Positions 910 to 8,824 of a stretch of 64,000 nt of DNA are shown piece after piece. The position numbers and the translations under genes are program-made. Within the stretch, counting starts at the first letter, position 1. The number at the start of each line of letters is the position of its first letter. The notes beneath the pieces are model-generated. The model was not told where the DNA came from. It was given only the letters and a program-made list of their open reading frames with translations, and ran no database searches. The stretch covers positions 1 through 64,000 of the forward strand of contig NZ_JDTH01000006.1 of NCBI RefSeq assembly GCF_000710615.1, read 5' to 3'. This DNA is from Haladaptatus cibarius D43. GTDB taxonomy: Archaea > Halobacteriota > Halobacteria > Halobacteriales > Haladaptataceae.

Positions 910-1716
910 CTAGCAGTCGTTCGTGTCTTCGTCGTCAGTCGCTTCGTCGTCCTCGGAATCCGAGTCTTCGGCCGTGTCGTCCGAGCCATCGTCGTCGGTA
1001 CTTTCATCCGAATCGTCGATCGTTTCTTCGTCGCTGTTGTCGGACTCTTCGCTGTCGTCCGTGTCGTTGCTATCGTCTTTCGGGGTCGTCGCGGAGTCGT
1101 CGGAGTCGTCCGTCGAGTCGTCGGTGTTGTCGTCAGACCCGTCGTCTGCGCCATCGTCGGAACCGTCACCAGCATCGCCATCCGAACCGTCGTCCGCGTT
1201 GTCGTCGGAGTCGTCGCTGTCGTCCGAATCATCGGAATCGTCGGTGTCATCCGAGTCATCGGAGCCGTTCGATTCATCGTCGCCGGGTGCAGTTGCACCC
1301 TGTTCGCTGTCGTCACCACCACTCTGCGTCGCCGTCACGATGCCGCCATCGTCGCGTAGTTCGACGATGTCCGGTTCTCCGTTGTAGAGAACGGTGCCGT
1401 CGTATCCGGCATTGTAGTCCGCATCGATTGTCGTCTCACTACCCGTTCCGACCGTTATCGACTCTCCCGGGTCGATACTCGTTCCATACGGGAACGAAAA
1501 TCGTTCGTAGTTATCGCCGAACGAAACCGTCATTCCTGAGAGGTCATACGACTGGTCACCCTCGTTTTCGATGACGACGTACTCTCCCTCATCGTTGACC
1601 TCGGAGATGCCGAGGTCAAGCTCGGCGTATTGTGCGCTTACGAGATGGAATCCGGTTGCAGACAGTAGCAACGCGAACACCACCGCGATCACTGCACCAC
1701 GTCCTTTCGATTTCAT
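910..1716 (-). CDS. Secreted lamin-tail-domain protein with long Ser/Asp-rich tail
   Basis: 268 residues. Residues 1-29 form a Sec-type signal (Lys/Arg start, then AVIAVVFALLLSATGFHLV) ending near a VSA-QYA cleavage site. Residues 30-125 match a lamin-tail domain: ISEVNDEGEYVVIENEG, DLSGMTVS, FPYGTSIDPGESITVGTG, and a terminal VELRDDGG. Residues 135-268 are almost only Ser, Asp, Glu and Thr, ending in Asn-Asp-Cys. The tail looks like an extended acidic stalk or spacer at the salty cell surface, which is an inference. There is no lipobox and no PGF-CTERM signal, so anchoring is unclear. The Asp-Ser codons also create an open frame on the + strand that is not a gene. Confidence 0.8.
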   Translation of the reverse strand: MKSKGRGAVIAVVFALLLSATGFHLVSAQYAELDLGISEVNDEGEYVVIENEGDQSYDLSGMTVSFGDNYERFSFPYGTSIDPGESITVGTGSETTIDADYNAGYDGTVLYNGEPDIVELRDDGGIVTATQSGGDDSEQGATAPGDDESNGSDDSDDTDDSDDSDDSDDSDDNADDGSDGDAGDGSDDGADDGSDDNTDDSTDDSDDSATTPKDDSNDTDDSEESDNSDEETIDDSDESTDDDGSDDTAEDSDSEDDEATDDEDTNDC

Positions 1717-1947: not shown

Positions 1948-2826
1948 TTACAGTGGTCTCCGAGGAGTAACGACCGGCCCTTCCGGGCCGATTCCGACCG
2001 TCGCCTCGACGCCGAACACGTCGGCCAACAGCTCTTCGGTCACCACTTCGCTCGGCGGTCCCCAGTCGTACGGTTCGCCGTCCCGCAGGGCGACGAGGTT
2101 GTTGGCGTAGCGGGCCGCCTGTGAAATGTCGTGGAGGACGATGCCGATTGTCAGGTCTTCTTCCTGCGCGAGGGTTCGGACGACTTCCAGCACGCGAAGT
2201 TGGTGGCGCAAGTCGAGGTAGGTGGTCGGTTCGTCCAGCAGGAGAACGTCCGTATCTTGGGCCAACACCATCGCAATCCACGCGAGTTGCCGCTGGCCGC
2301 CACTGAGACTGCCCATCTCCTCGTCTCGAAGGTGGGTGACTCCCGCGAGTTCGAGAGCCTTTTCTACAGCCTCGTGGTCTTCTTCCGTTTTCGACTCGAA
2401 AAATCCGCGATGCGGGTACCGCCCGTGATACGCGAGGTTTTCTACGGTCAGGTTTCCGGGCGACTCGTTCTCTTGAGAGAGCAAGCCGAGTTTTCGGGCC
2501 AGCGTTTTGGTTCCGAGTGAGTGTACGTCCTCGCCATCGAGCTGTACGACTCCCGATTCGGGGTGGAGTTCCCGCGACATCGCCTTGAGAAGCGTGCTTT
2601 TCCCGCTTCCATTCGGCCCGACAAGGGCCGTGATTTCGCCCGCCGGGACGACGATGGATTCACATTCGACGATGATACCCGAGTTGGGATAGCCGATTTC
2701 CAAATCGACTCCGCGAAGTTCGCTCGCGTTTTCGGGGTTCTGCTCTCCGCCAGCGTCCATTTCTTTCCGTTCTGCGACCATTCCACCGTCGGTCTGTCGC
2801 TCGTCGTCGGTTGTTCGTTCGCTCAT
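1948..2826 (-). CDS. Ferric-siderophore/cobalamin ABC transporter ATP-binding protein
   Basis: 292 residues from the ATG at 2826, which overlaps the TGA of the preceding FAD gene by four bases (ATGA). A longer frame upstream is only read-through into that gene. Walker A GPNGSGKS, signature LSGGQRQLAWIAMVLAQ, Walker B VLLLDEPTTYLDL and the switch His in VLHDISQAAR are all intact. The spacing matches the FecE/FhuC/BtuD group that powers import of ferric siderophores, haem or cobalamin. An acidic linker of about 35 residues precedes the ABC domain. It is last in the operon permease, FAD protein, ATPase, and should pair with the permease at 3638-4729 and the binding protein at 5091-6269. Confidence 0.93.
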   Translation of the reverse strand: MSERTTDDERQTDGGMVAERKEMDAGGEQNPENASELRGVDLEIGYPNSGIIVECESIVVPAGEITALVGPNGSGKSTLLKAMSRELHPESGVVQLDGEDVHSLGTKTLARKLGLLSQENESPGNLTVENLAYHGRYPHRGFFESKTEEDHEAVEKALELAGVTHLRDEEMGSLSGGQRQLAWIAMVLAQDTDVLLLDEPTTYLDLRHQLRVLEVVRTLAQEEDLTIGIVLHDISQAARYANNLVALRDGEPYDWGPPSEVVTEELLADVFGVEATVGIGPEGPVVTPRRPL

Positions 2827-3638
2827 GGTTCGATTTCCTCCATGTGTTTTCGGACGAGATTCCGCCCGCGCTCCGCTCGTTTCACTCGCTCCGTATCGTC
2901 CATCTCCAGTGAGGTGTATTCGCGCTTGAGCCGTTCTTTCATTCGCTTTTTGTCTTCGGGAGTCGCACTTTCGGGCGCGTGCTCGGCGATTAAATCGTCC
3001 AACCATTCCCAGTTCGTTCCGCTGTACCGTCCCTCCTCGACAGTCCAATCGTAGTAGTGCTCGGCGGCCTCATCCCAGAGTTCCTCGTCCTCTCGCCGAA
3101 CGTCGCGGACGAGCGCCAGCGCAGTCCGCGCACCGTCGCCCGCGCTGACGATGGCTTGATGTTCCGCCTCGCCGAGCCATCCCGTGACGTACAGTCCGGA
3201 AACGGGTGTTTTCCCGTCGCGTTCGACGGACTCCAACTCCGTTTCGAAATCGGACAGATATTCGTCGTCGTAGACTGACGCGGCGACCAGTCGATTCGGT
3301 TCGATTTCTCGACCGTCCTGCGTCGTCACGCGAAACCCGTCGTCGGTTTTCTCGGCGGCGACCACCATCCCGTCCGTGATTTCTGCTCCCGCGAGTTCGG
3401 CCTGTTCTCGGCTCATCGCAAGGAACGTCTCCGGCGGAATTCCACCGGGGAAGCCGAGGTAGTTCTCCAGATGCACACACTGACGAATCGCGGCTGTTCC
3501 GCCGTCGAATACGAGCGTATCGAGTCCGTACCGGGCGAGAAACACCGCGGCGGAGAGGCCCGACGCACCGCCGCCGACAATGACGACATCCCGGTTCGAA
3601 GCCGTTCTTTCGCCCTCCGTCCGTTCTTTTTCCACCAT
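2823..3638 (-). CDS. FAD-binding oxidoreductase, thioredoxin-reductase-like, without NADPH domain
   Basis: 271 residues. An N-terminal Rossmann fingerprint VVIVGGGASGLSAAVFLARYGL and the second FAD segment (GLYVTGWLGE, then GDGARTALAL) resemble thioredoxin reductase-like flavoproteins. The stretch between them is short: the NADPH-binding domain and the redox CxxC are missing, while a charged helical C-terminus of about 90 residues is added. Translation is coupled on both sides, since its start codon shares one base with the permease stop and its stop overlaps the ATPase start. Lying inside a ferric-siderophore transport operon under an iron-type operator, it may help release iron by reduction. 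That role is inferred, and the electron donor is unknown. Confidence 0.8.
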   Translation of the reverse strand: MVEKERTEGERTASNRDVVIVGGGASGLSAAVFLARYGLDTLVFDGGTAAIRQCVHLENYLGFPGGIPPETFLAMSREQAELAGAEITDGMVVAAEKTDDGFRVTTQDGREIEPNRLVAASVYDDEYLSDFETELESVERDGKTPVSGLYVTGWLGEAEHQAIVSAGDGARTALALVRDVRREDEELWDEAAEHYYDWTVEEGRYSGTNWEWLDDLIAEHAPESATPEDKKRMKERLKREYTSLEMDDTERVKRAERGRNLVRKHMEEIEP

Positions 3639-4729
3639 CAGAGTTCACCCAGTTGTTGTCGCTTTCGCATGAGATAGAGGAAGTACGGCCCGCCGACCAG
3701 TCCGGTGACGATGCCTACCGGAACCTGAACCGGGTTGAGCGCGAGGCGCGCGCCCACGTCTGCACCGACGACCAGCGCAGGCCCCGCGAACAGACAGCCG
3801 ATAACCAGTTTTCGGTAGTCGGTTCCGACGACGTTTCGGACGATGTGCGGGACGATGAGGCCGACGAAACTGACGATTCCGGCGACCGAAATGGCGGTGC
3901 TCGCGGCGAGAATCGCCAATGTGGAGAGCATGAATCGGACGCGTTCGACCGACATTCCGAGCGACCGGGCGGTTCGTTCGCCGAGCAGGAGGAGGTTCAA
4001 CTGCCGCGACACGACGAGGGAAATCGGGACGATGAACAGCGTCGGAATCAGGGCGGTTCTAACTTGTTCCCATCCGGTTCCCGTGAGCGACCCGGTCGTC
4101 CACGCGAGGGCGGTCTGTACCACGCCGATGTCCTGCGCGAAAAAGAACAGGCCGCGCTGGAACGAGTAGAAAATCGTTCCGACGATGAACCCGGCCAGCA
4201 CGAGGCGGACGGGACTCGTCCCACCTTTCCAGGCGATTGCGTACACGATCATGAAGGCGACGATGCCGCCCAGTGCGGCGAATATCGGCAGGAACATCGA
4301 CAGGCCGCTGAAGACGATGAGCGTGAGCAGGACGGCGAAACCAGCGCCGTGGCTCACGCCGAGGATGTACGGACTGGCCAGTTCGTTGCGTGTGACAGCC
4401 TGAAAGATGGCTCCCGAGATGGCGAGATTGGCACCGACCAGAATCCCGACGAGGACGCGCGGGAGTCGAAGGCTCCAGACGACGGTGGTTTCACTGCTCA
4501 ACTCCACAGGAATCTCGTTCCCGAGGAGCAGCGCCAGCAGCACGTCGGGATTTGTTATCACCTTCGGGTCGAACACCGCCCCCCACGCCTGTTCGAGCGA
4601 CATGCTAAACGCCCCGAAACTCACCTGCACCAGTCCACCAATCACGACGATGGCAGTGCTGGCAATTGCGACTGCCGCCAGTGCCCCGTCGAACGTCTTC
4701 GTTACCTCGTTCTCAAAATTCTCGCTCAT
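3638..4729 (-). CDS. FecCD-family ABC transporter permease (iron-siderophore type)
   Basis: 363 residues with about nine to ten hydrophobic segments, typical of the FecCD/BtuC family. Recognisable family stretches are LRLPRVLVGILVGANLAISG, then TRNELASPYILGVSHGAG and the late IVSFVGLIVPHIVRNVVG. The cytoplasmic gate/coupling region with the G-R-T-A-R-S-L-G-M segment (near residues 250-258) is present. Only one permease gene is seen, so a homodimer is expected. It opens the three-gene operon; a TTTAGG-N4-CCTAAA palindrome lies about 77 bases upstream of its ATG. A long open frame on the opposite strand is a shadow. Confidence 0.94.
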   Translation of the reverse strand: MSENFENEVTKTFDGALAAVAIASTAIVVIGGLVQVSFGAFSMSLEQAWGAVFDPKVITNPDVLLALLLGNEIPVELSSETTVVWSLRLPRVLVGILVGANLAISGAIFQAVTRNELASPYILGVSHGAGFAVLLTLIVFSGLSMFLPIFAALGGIVAFMIVYAIAWKGGTSPVRLVLAGFIVGTIFYSFQRGLFFFAQDIGVVQTALAWTTGSLTGTGWEQVRTALIPTLFIVPISLVVSRQLNLLLLGERTARSLGMSVERVRFMLSTLAILAASTAISVAGIVSFVGLIVPHIVRNVVGTDYRKLVIGCLFAGPALVVGADVGARLALNPVQVPVGIVTGLVGGPYFLYLMRKRQQLGEL

Positions 4730-5090
4730 GTATCCTCTTTTTGTGACTCGGTCGAATCGAGTGCCGCCGGTCGCACTTTGTCGATTTCGAGTCCTCGTTC
4801 CTGACTTTAGGTCACCCTAAACGCCGATAAGAGCTTTGGTTTTCCGCACCGCACCCAAATCTGCTTTATTTTCCGTCTTCCGACGCGATACTCTACTCTG
4901 TTCAGATTTGTTCGTCTGAAATTATATCTGCCACTTCGCGCTCATCGGTCGGTTGACTTTCGGGGAGTGTTCTCGCTCTTCTCTGTTGTGTAAAATAAGG
5001 GTGATTTGTGATATGGGATTGAACGCGAGCGCGATGCCCACCGTGCTCGCGTCGTTCTGCGTGCGATACACTGACTACTGCTTGTTCGTC
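4730..5090. other. Intergenic region with iron-type promoter
   Basis: About 360 bases separate the permease start from the stop of the binding-protein gene. The part next to the permease holds the palindromic operator at 4806-4821 and a weak TATA-like CTTATC element read on the minus strand near 4825-4832. The rest is AT-richer, and I see no coding potential or strong hairpin in it. The open frame running through 4953-5420 on + is mostly antisense to the binding-protein gene. Confidence 0.5.
4806..4821. promoter_or_regulatory. Palindromic operator TTTAGG-N4-CCTAAA, probable DtxR/SirR-family iron site
   Basis: A perfect inverted repeat of six bases with a 4-base spacer (TCAC) lies in the promoter of the permease-FAD-ATPase operon. 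The same half-sites with the same spacing recur at 6272-6287 before the binding-protein gene. The arms resemble those of DtxR/IdeR boxes (TTAGG...CCTAA). Haloarchaea use DtxR-family regulators (SirR, Idr) for iron uptake genes, so iron-dependent repression is the likely role. The regulator gene itself is not in the window. Confidence 0.75.
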
Positions 5091-6269
5091 TTAACCGTTG
5101 ACGATGTTGACGACCTTCTCGCGGTCGAACAGCTGTTCGGAAATGTCGTACACCTGCTTCGCCGCGCGCTCGGTGACGACGAGGTTCGTGATTGGCCCCT
5201 GATAGAGCGGGCCGCCACGGTACACGTCGCCGTTTTTGACCGCCGTGAGTTTGCTCGCCACGTTGTGGTCTTTCATGAACGAGACGACGGTGTTCTGGAA
5301 CTCCTCTTTTGTCTTCGCTTCGTGACCACGGAAGAGGAGTACGTCGGGGTCGATTTCGAGCAAAGTTTCGTAATCGACCTCGCCGCGGTTTTTGTGGAAG
5401 TCACGAACCGACGTGTTTGAAAGTGCGTCTTTGACTTTCAGGCTCCGCCACTGCTTGAAACTCGTCCCCTCGCTGATGAGGTAGGGGAGGAACGCCGTCG
5501 GTTCGTTGCCCGACGCCCACATGGTTGCGACTTCGGGGCGGTCGGCTTTGTTCTTCGGAACGACCGAATCGACTTTCGATTGGAACTCTTCGTGGAGCGA
5601 CGCAAACTGTTCGTATCGGTCAGTTCGCTGGAACACCTGTGCCAACTTCTCGAACGCTTCGTACAGCGTGTAGTACTTGTAATCGTTGTGGAAGTCGTAG
5701 CTACGCGAGAAGATGCTGTTCCCGAAGAAGGGTGCGACATCATTGCGAACATCGTCGATGTCACCCTGCTCCCAGTTGAATCGGTTCAACAGGAAGTTCG
5801 GGTCAATGATGTGAACGTCGCCGTCCAGTTCGTAGAACAACTCTTTGTTTACGCCGTCCGAAGAAAGGTTGACCATGTCGCTTTTGTCGACGGACACACC
5901 CGGAATTTCGTCGTAATACTGGGTGTGGTATCGGCTGGTCAGCCATACTGCTTTCGGCGGTTCAAGTCCGAGCGCGATGCCCATGTCGGCCCAACTGCCG
6001 TTGTTGGCGACCCACGTTTCCGGCACCGATTCGAACTCCACTTCGCCGACCGGTTCCATCGACACCGAGTACGGCCCTGACTGGGAAGTCGTGCCGCCAC
6101 TGCCCGTCCCGTCGTCATCTTCACCGGTTCCGTCGGTACTCGTCTGTGTCTCGTCGCTATCGTCGCCGCCGCCGGTACATCCGGCAAGCAGTGCCGCGCC
6201 AGCGACACTGCTTCCCGTGATGAATCGACGTCGAGTGACGGTTTTCGACTCGTCTGCTACCATACTCAT
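5091..6269 (-). CDS. Iron-siderophore ABC transporter substrate-binding lipoprotein, Tat-exported
   Basis: 392 residues. The N-terminus has a twin-arginine motif (TRRRFITGSS), a short hydrophobic stretch and a lipobox LLAGC, so the mature Cys near residue 31 is probably lipidated after Tat export. A Gly/Ser/Thr/Asp linker to about residue 65 precedes a class III periplasmic-binding (FepB/FhuD-like) fold that ends near VYDISEQLF. The ligand side-chain set cannot be deduced, so siderophore, haem or cobalamin all remain possible; iron is favoured by the operator. The ATG at 6269 sits two bases from that operator, fitting a leaderless mRNA. A second in-frame ATG at 6263 is an alternative start. 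Confidence 0.92.
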   Translation of the reverse strand: MSMVADESKTVTRRRFITGSSVAGAALLAGCTGGGDDSDETQTSTDGTGEDDDGTGSGGTTSQSGPYSVSMEPVGEVEFESVPETWVANNGSWADMGIALGLEPPKAVWLTSRYHTQYYDEIPGVSVDKSDMVNLSSDGVNKELFYELDGDVHIIDPNFLLNRFNWEQGDIDDVRNDVAPFFGNSIFSRSYDFHNDYKYYTLYEAFEKLAQVFQRTDRYEQFASLHEEFQSKVDSVVPKNKADRPEVATMWASGNEPTAFLPYLISEGTSFKQWRSLKVKDALSNTSVRDFHKNRGEVDYETLLEIDPDVLLFRGHEAKTKEEFQNTVVSFMKDHNVASKLTAVKNGDVYRGGPLYQGPITNLVVTERAAKQVYDISEQLFDREKVVNIVNG

Positions 6270-6271
6270 GT

Positions 6272-6287
6272 TTTAGGCTTACCTAAA
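6272..6287. promoter_or_regulatory. Second TTTAGG-N4-CCTAAA operator abutting the binding-protein start
   Basis: The half-sites are identical to those at 4806-4821, with spacer CTTA. On the minus strand the palindrome lies immediately before the ATG at 6269, with an AT-rich TATA-like stretch (TTTTACGTA) just upstream at about 6289-6297. This would put the operator between TATA box and transcription start, a position that blocks initiation. A further half-site, CCTAAAA, lies at 6318-6324. Confidence 0.75.
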
Positions 6288-6435
6288 GATACGTAAAACT
6301 TCCCATTTTTCGGCGGGCCTAAAATCTCCTCCCGGCGTGTCTTCGATAATTTTTCGTGTCGCTTGTTGAACTTGACGGCCGAGTTTCAAATACTTGCCCA
6401 TCGTACCGCGTATCGAGAATGGGGGAGACGACACG

Positions 6436-7581
6436 ATGGGAAACAAAAACGACGGAGAGCGACGACCAGCGACGCGCTCGACGTTCGACAGACGATTTAG
6501 AACCATGGGCAGACGACGCTTCGTTTCGACGCTTCTCGGGGCCGGATTCGGTTCGATGGCGGCACTACTCACACCGGACGATATAGAATCTGCAGGGCGC
6601 AACGAAGTTCCACTCGTGTACGCGCGCGGGAGCGGCTCCGAACCGCGAACGACGACGGTTTCCGCGGACTGGTTCGAAAACCTCCGCTCGGCTTTCGACG
6701 CACACCGCCGACTCGACGTTGCCTCGCTGCCGAGTGTGGTCGGAAGTGCCGTCGTTCCGGGGGAGTTCGGCGGCCGAAACGCCGCGCTCTCGGTTGACGT
6801 GACCGGAAGCGAAGCAGGCGGCGCAGTTCCGGAACGCGTCGGCGACGTAGCAGTCGAACTGAACCGCGTCGAATCGAGGAAGACGGACGCGAATCGGAAC
6901 CGCAGTTCCGATTCGCTCGGGGGAAAACTGGTTCCCGGCGGTATCAAATGCGGCAACCGGAACTCTGCCGGAACGCTCGCACCCGCGATGTACGACGGAA
7001 CGTCCCCGTTTTTCGCCACCTCAAACCACGTCTTCGGCGGCGATGCGGAACAGCATCGGGGCGAATCGTTCTTCGTCTTCGGCGACGACACCCCGCGGAA
7101 AATCGGTGAAGTTCGCAGAGGCTACCAACTCGACGATTTCGTCCGCATCGACCCCGTAAACGGGTTTCACCCGGCGAGCGAGATTCACGGCGTCTCACCG
7201 GCCACCGTCGTCGGGCAGTTCACCCGCGAGGGACTCGCCGAACTCAAAGCGCGCGGCGAAAAACTGGAGAAAGTCGCGTATCGGTCGGGCCACTCTACCG
7301 GGGCCCTCCACGCCATCGACGGACTGACCTGCGCCTACGGAAAGGTGTGCAAGCGTGGCCAACTGAAATGGGGGTCGCAGTCGGATTTCACCGACGGCGA
7401 CAGCGGCAGCGTCAACTACCATCCCGACCCGGAAAACCCCGATACTGGCGTTCTGGTCGGCGGGTTCAACAACGCTCGGACGTGGTGGCCCGGCGAGGAT
7501 TACATCTGGGGAACGTCGGCTTACCACATCACGGCCAACTACGGCTTTACGTTCTCGCCACTGACCGCTGGCTCTCGGTGA
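6436..7581 (+). CDS. Tat-exported trypsin-like serine protease homologue
   Basis: 381 residues from the ATG at 6436, chosen because a strong GGGGGAG ribosome-binding sequence lies 8-10 bases upstream; a later ATG at 6505 would begin right at the Tat motif. The motif MGRRRFVSTLLGAGFGSM (about residues 24-41) is a twin-arginine signal. The mature part carries a chymotrypsin-like triad: His198 in SNHVFGG, Asp near 233-239 in LDDFVRID, and Ser323 in DGDSGS. The Gly-Asp-Ser-Gly-Ser element is the clearest evidence. Sequence around these motifs is otherwise diverged, with paired Cys residues (GIKCGN, LTCAYGKVCKRG). Its 3' end overlaps the convergent DUF389 gene by 35 bases. Substrate is unknown. 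Confidence 0.75.
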   Translation: MGNKNDGERRPATRSTFDRRFRTMGRRRFVSTLLGAGFGSMAALLTPDDIESAGRNEVPLVYARGSGSEPRTTTVSADWFENLRSAFDAHRRLDVASLPSVVGSAVVPGEFGGRNAALSVDVTGSEAGGAVPERVGDVAVELNRVESRKTDANRNRSSDSLGGKLVPGGIKCGNRNSAGTLAPAMYDGTSPFFATSNHVFGGDAEQHRGESFFVFGDDTPRKIGEVRRGYQLDDFVRIDPVNGFHPASEIHGVSPATVVGQFTREGLAELKARGEKLEKVAYRSGHSTGALHAIDGLTCAYGKVCKRGQLKWGSQSDFTDGDSGSVNYHPDPENPDTGVLVGGFNNARTWWPGEDYIWGTSAYHITANYGFTFSPLTAGSR

Positions 7582-8824
7582 ACTCCACTTCGACTATCGT
7601 TTTTCCGTCGAGTCGTCCGGAGACTGCGTTTGCAAGTCGCTCCGACAACTGCGGATACGGTTCGTTCGTCGGACGACGCACGACGACGGTAATCTGTTGA
7701 CTGTCGTCGAGGGTTCCCATGTCGTCGAACTCGACCTGTATCTTCACGAGTTCGAGCTGTTGGTACCGCTCTTGTTCGAGTACCGACTGAACCTCTTCGT
7801 TGACGGCGTTTTCCGTCTGCATCTGCTTGCTCATCACCAGCCCCGACCCGGAAAACGCGGTGAGCAGGACGGCAACAGCGACGAGGGTCGGAGCCGCCTT
7901 TCGGAGCGTCGTTCCTTCGACCGGTCGATAGCCGAGTATCCACAATACGCCACCGCCTGCAGCGTTGATGGAGACGGCGTTCACGACCAACAGGACGAAC
8001 GCGCCGAGTGCGATGACCGGCGGCCCCCACGCGAGTCCGATTCCGACCGCCGCCGCCGCGGGGATGAGCGCCGCGGCAATCATGACGCCGACGAGCGAAA
8101 CCGGGAGGGCGGTTGCAAGCCCTAACGCCCCTGCCGCTCCTGCACACAGACCGACCGCCACCGAGAGAAAGCCGGGTGAAATGCGTTGGCTTATCTGATT
8201 CACCGTCACCACGTTGAGCGACGGGGGGATGAACTGTGCCGTCTTCAGTGCCCAGCCAAAAATCGTCGCACTGACGATGGCGACGACTAACCCGAGAATT
8301 TGGGAACGTAACCCGTCGATAATCATGTGTCGGTCGTTCAGTACGAGGCCGACGCTCGCCGTCATCGCCGACCCGACTTGCGGGGCGATAACCATCGACC
8401 CGACGACGATTGCCGGCGAATCGAGCAGGAGTCCGGCGGTTGCGACGATTGCCGACAGCACGGTCATCGCGTAGTAGGTCACCGGACTCGGATTCATCCC
8501 GAGCGCTTTCGTGCGGATTTCCTCGGTGGCGATGCTGTCGTCCTCGTCGCCACCCTTGACGAACTTGTCCTCCAGTTCCTGAATGTTCGGCGTCCGTGCC
8601 GTTTCCACGCTCCCGATGACGGTGTAATCGTCGGATAGACCGGCCTCCCGAAGGTCAGAGAGCACCCTATCCACGGCCTGTGCCGGGAGTGGAAACTGAA
8701 CGATTGCCGAGTTGTCGCCGTTGCTCTCCTCGCGCGTGAGGACGTAATCAATACGCTCGTCGTCTAAGACGGAGAGAACGGCGTCCCGGCAGTCGTCCGG
8801 AACGAGGACCTGGATGAGACGCAT
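7547..8824 (-). CDS. DUF389 family (TIGR00341-type) membrane protein
   Basis: 425 residues. The first 100 residues form a soluble ACT-like domain starting MRLIQVLVPDD. The membrane part (about 130-330) has six or so helices with the family pattern GSMVIAPQVGSAMTASVGL followed by LIPAAAAVGIGLAWG. A soluble C-terminal domain of about 90 residues follows. Function of the family is not established; it is widespread in haloarchaea and some bacteria. It is convergent with the protease gene and lies in the same direction as the large regulator upstream, with a 30-base gap, so co-transcription is possible. Confidence 0.9.
   Translation of the reverse strand: MRLIQVLVPDDCRDAVLSVLDDERIDYVLTREESNGDNSAIVQFPLPAQAVDRVLSDLREAGLSDDYTVIGSVETARTPNIQELEDKFVKGGDEDDSIATEEIRTKALGMNPSPVTYYAMTVLSAIVATAGLLLDSPAIVVGSMVIAPQVGSAMTASVGLVLNDRHMIIDGLRSQILGLVVAIVSATIFGWALKTAQFIPPSLNVVTVNQISQRISPGFLSVAVGLCAGAAGALGLATALPVSLVGVMIAAALIPAAAAVGIGLAWGPPVIALGAFVLLVVNAVSINAAGGGVLWILGYRPVEGTTLRKAAPTLVAVAVLLTAFSGSGLVMSKQMQTENAVNEEVQSVLEQERYQQLELVKIQVEFDDMGTLDDSQQITVVVRRPTNEPYPQLSERLANAVSGRLDGKTIVEVEFTESQRSVART

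Follow-up and report, generated by a model that had tools for sequence, protein, structure and literature searches.

The two exact TTTAGG-N4-CCTAAA palindromes in the analysed window, a stretch of 64,000 nt that includes a ferric-siderophore ABC locus, together with a third, imperfect copy, are very probably operators of a DtxR/IdeR-family metal-dependent repressor, in a regulon of a type already described in haloarchaea. Both exact copies claimed in an earlier note were found where it had placed them (Table 1), and its assignment to the promoters of ferric-siderophore ABC genes was correct. One copy lies directly upstream of the Peripla_BP_2 gene and the other 76 nt upstream of the FecCD start codon at 4729, the first gene of the permease operon. 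The gene order on the minus strand is Peripla_BP_2 lipoprotein, intergenic promoter, permease, oxidoreductase and ATPase. The motif had been said to occur nowhere else in the window, which is true of exact matches, but a one-mismatch copy (O2) had been overlooked. It reads TTTCGG-CGGG-CCTAAA on the plus strand and TTTAGG-N4-CCGAAA on the gene strand, and this form, with CCGAA in one arm, is retained by close relatives within the genus.

Table 1. Operators, promoter elements and genes of the siderophore locus (positions in the window)
Feature	Position	Strand	Remarks
Inner operator O1, siderophore-binding-protein promoter	6272..6287	.	TTTAGG-N4-CCTAAA, exact
Outer operator O2	6308..6323	.	One mismatch; 36 bp from O1, start to start
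Single operator, permease-operon promoter	4806..4821	.	TTTAGG-N4-CCTAAA, exact
TATA-like element TTTTACGTA	6290..6298	-	Between O2 and O1; putative function
BRE/TATA-like element AACCAAAGCTCTTATC	4826..4841	-	Immediately upstream of the permease operator; putative function
Siderophore-type substrate-binding lipoprotein (Peripla_BP_2), 392 aa	5091..6269	-	Alternative ATG at 6263 possible
FecCD-family permease, 363 aa	3638..4729	-	First gene of the permease operon
FAD/NAD(P) oxidoreductase, thioredoxin-reductase-like	2823..3638	-	Candidate ferric-siderophore reductase (putative role)
ABC ATPase, FecE/FepC type	1948..2826	-	

With a Markov model fitted to the window, only 0.0001–0.0003 exact 16-mers would be expected per 64 kb. 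When up to two mismatches were allowed, three motif matches were found in the window, compared with an average of 0.55 in shuffled sequences; three were reached in 2 of 100 shuffles. In Haloferax mediterranei, the iron-uptake genes reported to shift together with siderophore synthesis genes under denitrification include an ATPase, a permease and an oxidoreductase gene whose locus tags are consecutive (PMC11218638). Elsewhere in the window, positions 910–1716 (minus strand) encode an apparently exported protein whose long tail is rich in Ser and Asp and which has no obvious tie to the iron genes.

The earlier note had proposed scanning the whole genome for the motif and looking for enrichment upstream of iron genes. 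In the host genome (3.93 Mb, 13 contigs), the pattern TTAGG-N4-CCTAA gave 16 exact sites, against 0.04–0.33 expected under Markov models of orders 1–4. All 16 lay outside called genes (binomial 6e-14, with ~15% of the window non-coding), the genes having been called by codon usage, so that small ones may be missed. The sites fall into 12 promoter regions, nine of which could be tied to iron through Pfam matches or location: five Peripla_BP_2 regions, the permease operon of the window, an aminotransferase/decarboxylase/IucA operon, an Acetyltransf_8 gene and sufCBD, the suf genes being named from sequence and order with a profile run for the ATPase only (ABC_tran match). Because nine of the 12 regions are iron-related, the proposal passed this test. 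The idea of an iron regulon therefore stands, but not its restriction to this locus, since the sites are spread genome-wide. A reversed-pattern control at up to one mismatch gave 109 matches in the host genome compared with 30 for the motif, an excess foreseen by the Markov model; for a single site this control was judged poor and was replaced by the Markov expectation and 59 permuted half-site patterns.

The remaining three regions, which are not clearly iron genes, comprise a DUF7552 gene, a LysE-containing region and, close to a ferritin-fold gene, a 55-aa ORF. The DUF7552 gene (L054:6616-7068, minus strand) is preceded by two operators 20–21 bp apart (L054:7070-7106), an arrangement that recurs across the family, and its product is predicted from these operators to be iron-regulated. 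The 55-aa ORF, with a CxxC motif, begins 8 nt behind an exact operator (L060:6556-6571), and the ferritin-fold gene nearby is Dps-like. Other variants were also noted in the host. Two TGAGG-N4-CCTAA sites on contig C11 (L061:7963-7976 and 8550-8563), ~3 kb from the second DtxR-FeoA paralogue, may mark another metal regulon, and a site with a single base of one arm altered, TTTAGGTTAGGCTAAA, lies upstream of a Cupin_2 gene (L064:4061-4076).

Conservation was examined at the family, genus and class levels. Among binding-protein relatives in the family, 25/25 parsed loci carried O1 (up to one mismatch) and O2 (up to three) 34–36 bp apart; of 30 loci fetched, these 25 were parsed, and they count the window itself as well as one identical pair of duplicates. 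Pairs were later found at two of the unparsed loci, L088 and L089 (the others being L085, L098 and L099). Across 49 named haloarchaeal loci, collected by protein similarity to the binding protein of the window, 48 had a site within 450 bp upstream (34 a pair, 14 a single site), and one had none. Spacing in the 34 paired loci was 36 bp (22), 34 bp (five), 35 bp (five), 37 bp (one) and 20 bp (one). None of the 59 permuted half-site patterns gave a match in any of the 49 loci, and the closest named matches to the binding protein were from Haladaptatus species (73–79% identity). The permease operator was present with 0–1 mismatch in all 11 genus loci examined, in which some species appear twice, and upstream of it AACCAAAGCTCTTAT, the core of AACCAAAGCTCTTATC, was identical in all 11. 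The exact tandem pattern was found in 28/28 family genomes and 191/292 class genomes, and the reversed tandem pattern in none of them.

It had been claimed that the arms of the palindrome are selected and the spacer is not. This was contradicted, as the spacer is constrained: a C or T adjoins the TTAGG arm in 30 of the 32 half-sites in the host genome, and in 97/110 O1 half-sites of 55 non-redundant tandem promoters, with the same proportion at O2.

The resemblance to DtxR/IdeR boxes pointed out at the outset was confirmed, in that the TTAGG-N4-CCTAA core present at the window sites equals the 14-bp site TTAGGNNNNCCTAA, which IdeR binds as one dimer with a KD of about 78 nM and which that study puts forward as the redefined consensus (PMC8464063). 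The actinobacterial operator is, according to the same study, usually a 19-bp overlapping double site, whereas the haloarchaeal sites are separate and stand 34–37 bp apart around BRE/TATA. Within the haloarchaea, PMC11349517 places a 'ferR regulon signal' before all Haloferax fhu operons (citing Leyn and Rodionov 2015), describes induction of FhuD/FhuG by iron starvation in Haloferax, and refers to TroR of Haloferax volcanii as a DtxR-family regulator (citing Martinez Pastor 2024). The same paper gives the level of the siderophore biosynthesis protein IucC as lower, not higher, under iron starvation. The present sites share with that regulon, as cited in PMC11349517, the host class, the fhu-type siderophore ABC targets and probable DtxR-family control; they stand at siderophore uptake, siderophore synthesis and suf promoters (nine of 12 regions) and are kept across haloarchaeal genera (48/49 loci). 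Because the 14-bp core matches the published IdeR site and the ferR signal is in print, the window sites were assigned as probable further members of the haloarchaeal iron regulon.

Eight PF01325 matches were found in the host genome; four of these proteins also carry PF02742 (C2:469937, C11:114757, C2:503264 and C2:1850946), and two of the four also carry FeoA. The suggestion of a SirR/Idr-type regulator can thus be upheld at the level of the DtxR family but not for the specific type, as there are four candidate proteins and none is a certain pick. One DtxR-FeoA protein, P0001 (C2:469937), could be aligned with IdeR, and two residues of the recognition helix, Pro39 and Thr40, are unchanged in it; at the IdeR base-contact positions Ser37, Pro39, Thr40 and Gln43 (PMC8464063) it has Thr, Pro, Thr and Ser. 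Between TATA and ATG, the promoter of P0001 has TTTAGA-N4-TCTAAW or a close variant in 27/28 family loci (20/21 plus 7/7; L132 and orthologues, with 29 loci fetched and L159 set aside as a match to the other paralogue). In a class-wide sample of 30 genera, the same holds for P0001 orthologues in 13 at the chosen threshold. In the host genome there are only two copies of TTTAGA-N4-TCTAAW, one of them at G000:C2:469919-469934. IdeR tolerates this C-to-T change, with a KD of about 70 vs 45 nM (PMC8464063). These observations point to P0001 as the likely reader of the motif and as a regulator of its own gene, though a paralogue may act on the P0001 promoter.

The strongest competitor to iron control through a single repressor is control chiefly by manganese or some other metal, or by several DtxR paralogues acting jointly. 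Where IdeR has Met10 and Cys102, P0001 has Asp, a pattern resembling Mn-type sites; both P0001 and L161 score best with the NCBIfam Mn-dependent MntR model, under its cut-off, and the presence of four host proteins with PF01325 and PF02742 leaves room for more than one reader. Against this, the genes behind the sites are for siderophore uptake, siderophore synthesis and suf, and the homologous FhuD/FhuG are up in iron-starved Haloferax (PMC11349517), and we consider this reading unlikely.

In several relatives two DtxR genes lie ~5 kb or less apart, and in the host one is directly behind sufCBD. The suf-linked short DtxR (L102:1501-1926, minus strand; G000:C2:503264-503689) is without most of the usual metal ligands: Tyr, Arg, Lys and Ser stand at the positions of His79, His98, Cys102 and His106, respectively. 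Cys 77, 121, 124 and 132 are invariant in 12/12 aligned orthologues, and the protein is possibly an Fe-S or Zn sensor beside suf. Choosing the regulator by presence or absence was attempted and dropped. The short DtxR was found in 58/60 genomes (66–82% identity; host 100%), a set made up equally of genomes picked because they lack a tandem pair and genomes picked because they have three or more, and therefore gave no discrimination; the DtxR-FeoA type was equally uninformative, being matched in 30/30.

The paired arrangement upstream of the binding-protein gene recurs with a restricted set of spacings. For 75 listed of 77 family pairs, start-to-start distances were 36 bp (32), 34 bp (12), 35 bp (four), 37 bp (three) and 20–21 bp (24), those examined in the last class mostly preceding DUF7552-like genes. 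Among the matches listed outside the family of the window, 52/59 pairs were at 34–37 bp. Helical phasing of two dimers, for which peaks at ~26 and 46 bp would be expected, was rejected, as the same 59 pairs included one at 26 bp and none at 46 bp. In the 55 non-redundant 34–37 bp promoters, and most clearly in the 34 and 36 classes (the 35 class having n=7), two elements hold a constant place relative to O1, namely a BRE-like (C)CGAAA (~-18 to -13) and a TATA-like run (~-9 to -5), and the position of TTTTACGTA agrees with the TATA columns. Both elements lie between the two operators, the ATG follows O1 by 3–6 nt in 51/55 promoters, and the difference between 34 and 36 bp spacing sits in the gap between O2 and BRE. 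Exact copies are found at O1 in 41/55 and at O2 in 17/55. Several operators at one promoter are also a feature of MDR1 of Archaeoglobus fulgidus, an archaeal DtxR-family repressor.

It could be argued that the 34–37 bp pairing reflects past duplication of binding-protein genes instead of a functional geometry, since many pairs precede paralogous binding proteins. This appears improbable: a 36-bp pair also precedes an unrelated siderophore-synthesis operon, the sequence between the sites is mostly dissimilar except for BRE and TATA, and the 34–37 bp spacing prevails among the listed pairs outside the family as well. A role of the palindromes at the RNA level, as hairpins or terminators and not as DNA operators, is highly improbable, for although each could form 6+6 pairing around a 4-nt loop, O1 stands between TATA and the start codon and so is at most partly transcribed, the arms are identical upstream of unrelated genes, the outer spacer bases are conserved too, and no Rfam match was found in window positions 4500–6700.

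For the preferred reading, that of DtxR-family operators, we infer binding by a DtxR protein, the paralogue and metal concerned, and a repressive effect from the arrangement above. When iron is sufficient, a metal-loaded dimer would sit on each of the palindromes (TTAGG-Y-N2-R-CCTAA). In front of the binding-protein gene, O1 fills the stretch from TATA to the start codon (~-4 to -20) and a weaker O2 adjoins BRE on its upstream side, so that the two bound sites would mask the core promoter and keep TBP, TFB and RNA polymerase from assembling there; the permease operon has one O1 in the corresponding place behind TATA. As iron falls, the repressor would leave and the siderophore binding protein, permease, oxidoreductase and ATPase would be produced. 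The O2 of the window may be weak or bound via one arm, because it has CCGAA in one arm and a T3-to-G change in all repeats abolished IdeR binding (PMC8464063). Points against the repressor reading are the direction of the IucC response, this arm change in O2, the three regions not clearly tied to iron, the Asp residues of P0001 and the excess in the reversed control.

A broader model can be put forward tentatively, with somewhat more doubt than confidence: a standard haloarchaeal iron-promoter module in which two separate single-dimer DtxR operators clamp BRE/TATA, together with a variant operator on the regulator gene. The inner operator would be fixed ~7 nt from TATA and ~4 nt from the ATG, and the outer operator packed against BRE with a gap of ~0–2 nt. 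TTTAGA-N4-TCTAAW at the O1 position of the regulator gene would then provide graded autoregulation. A 34–37 bp double operator around a haloarchaeal TATA box was not found in the literature compared, with Leyn and Rodionov 2015 and Martinez Pastor 2024 lying outside that comparison; the paired geometry may be unreported so far.

These results assign the ferric-siderophore locus of a little-studied haloarchaeon to a defined iron regulon and name further members of unknown function, DUF7552 and the 55-aa ORF. The chief addition to known iron control is that the operators are often paired in a manner suggesting that they clamp the core promoter. The promoter geometry offers a directly testable model for how an archaeal repressor may block the TBP/TFB machinery and, if the clamp model is true, would represent a geometry of repression that is shared across the class and particular to core promoters of the archaeal kind.
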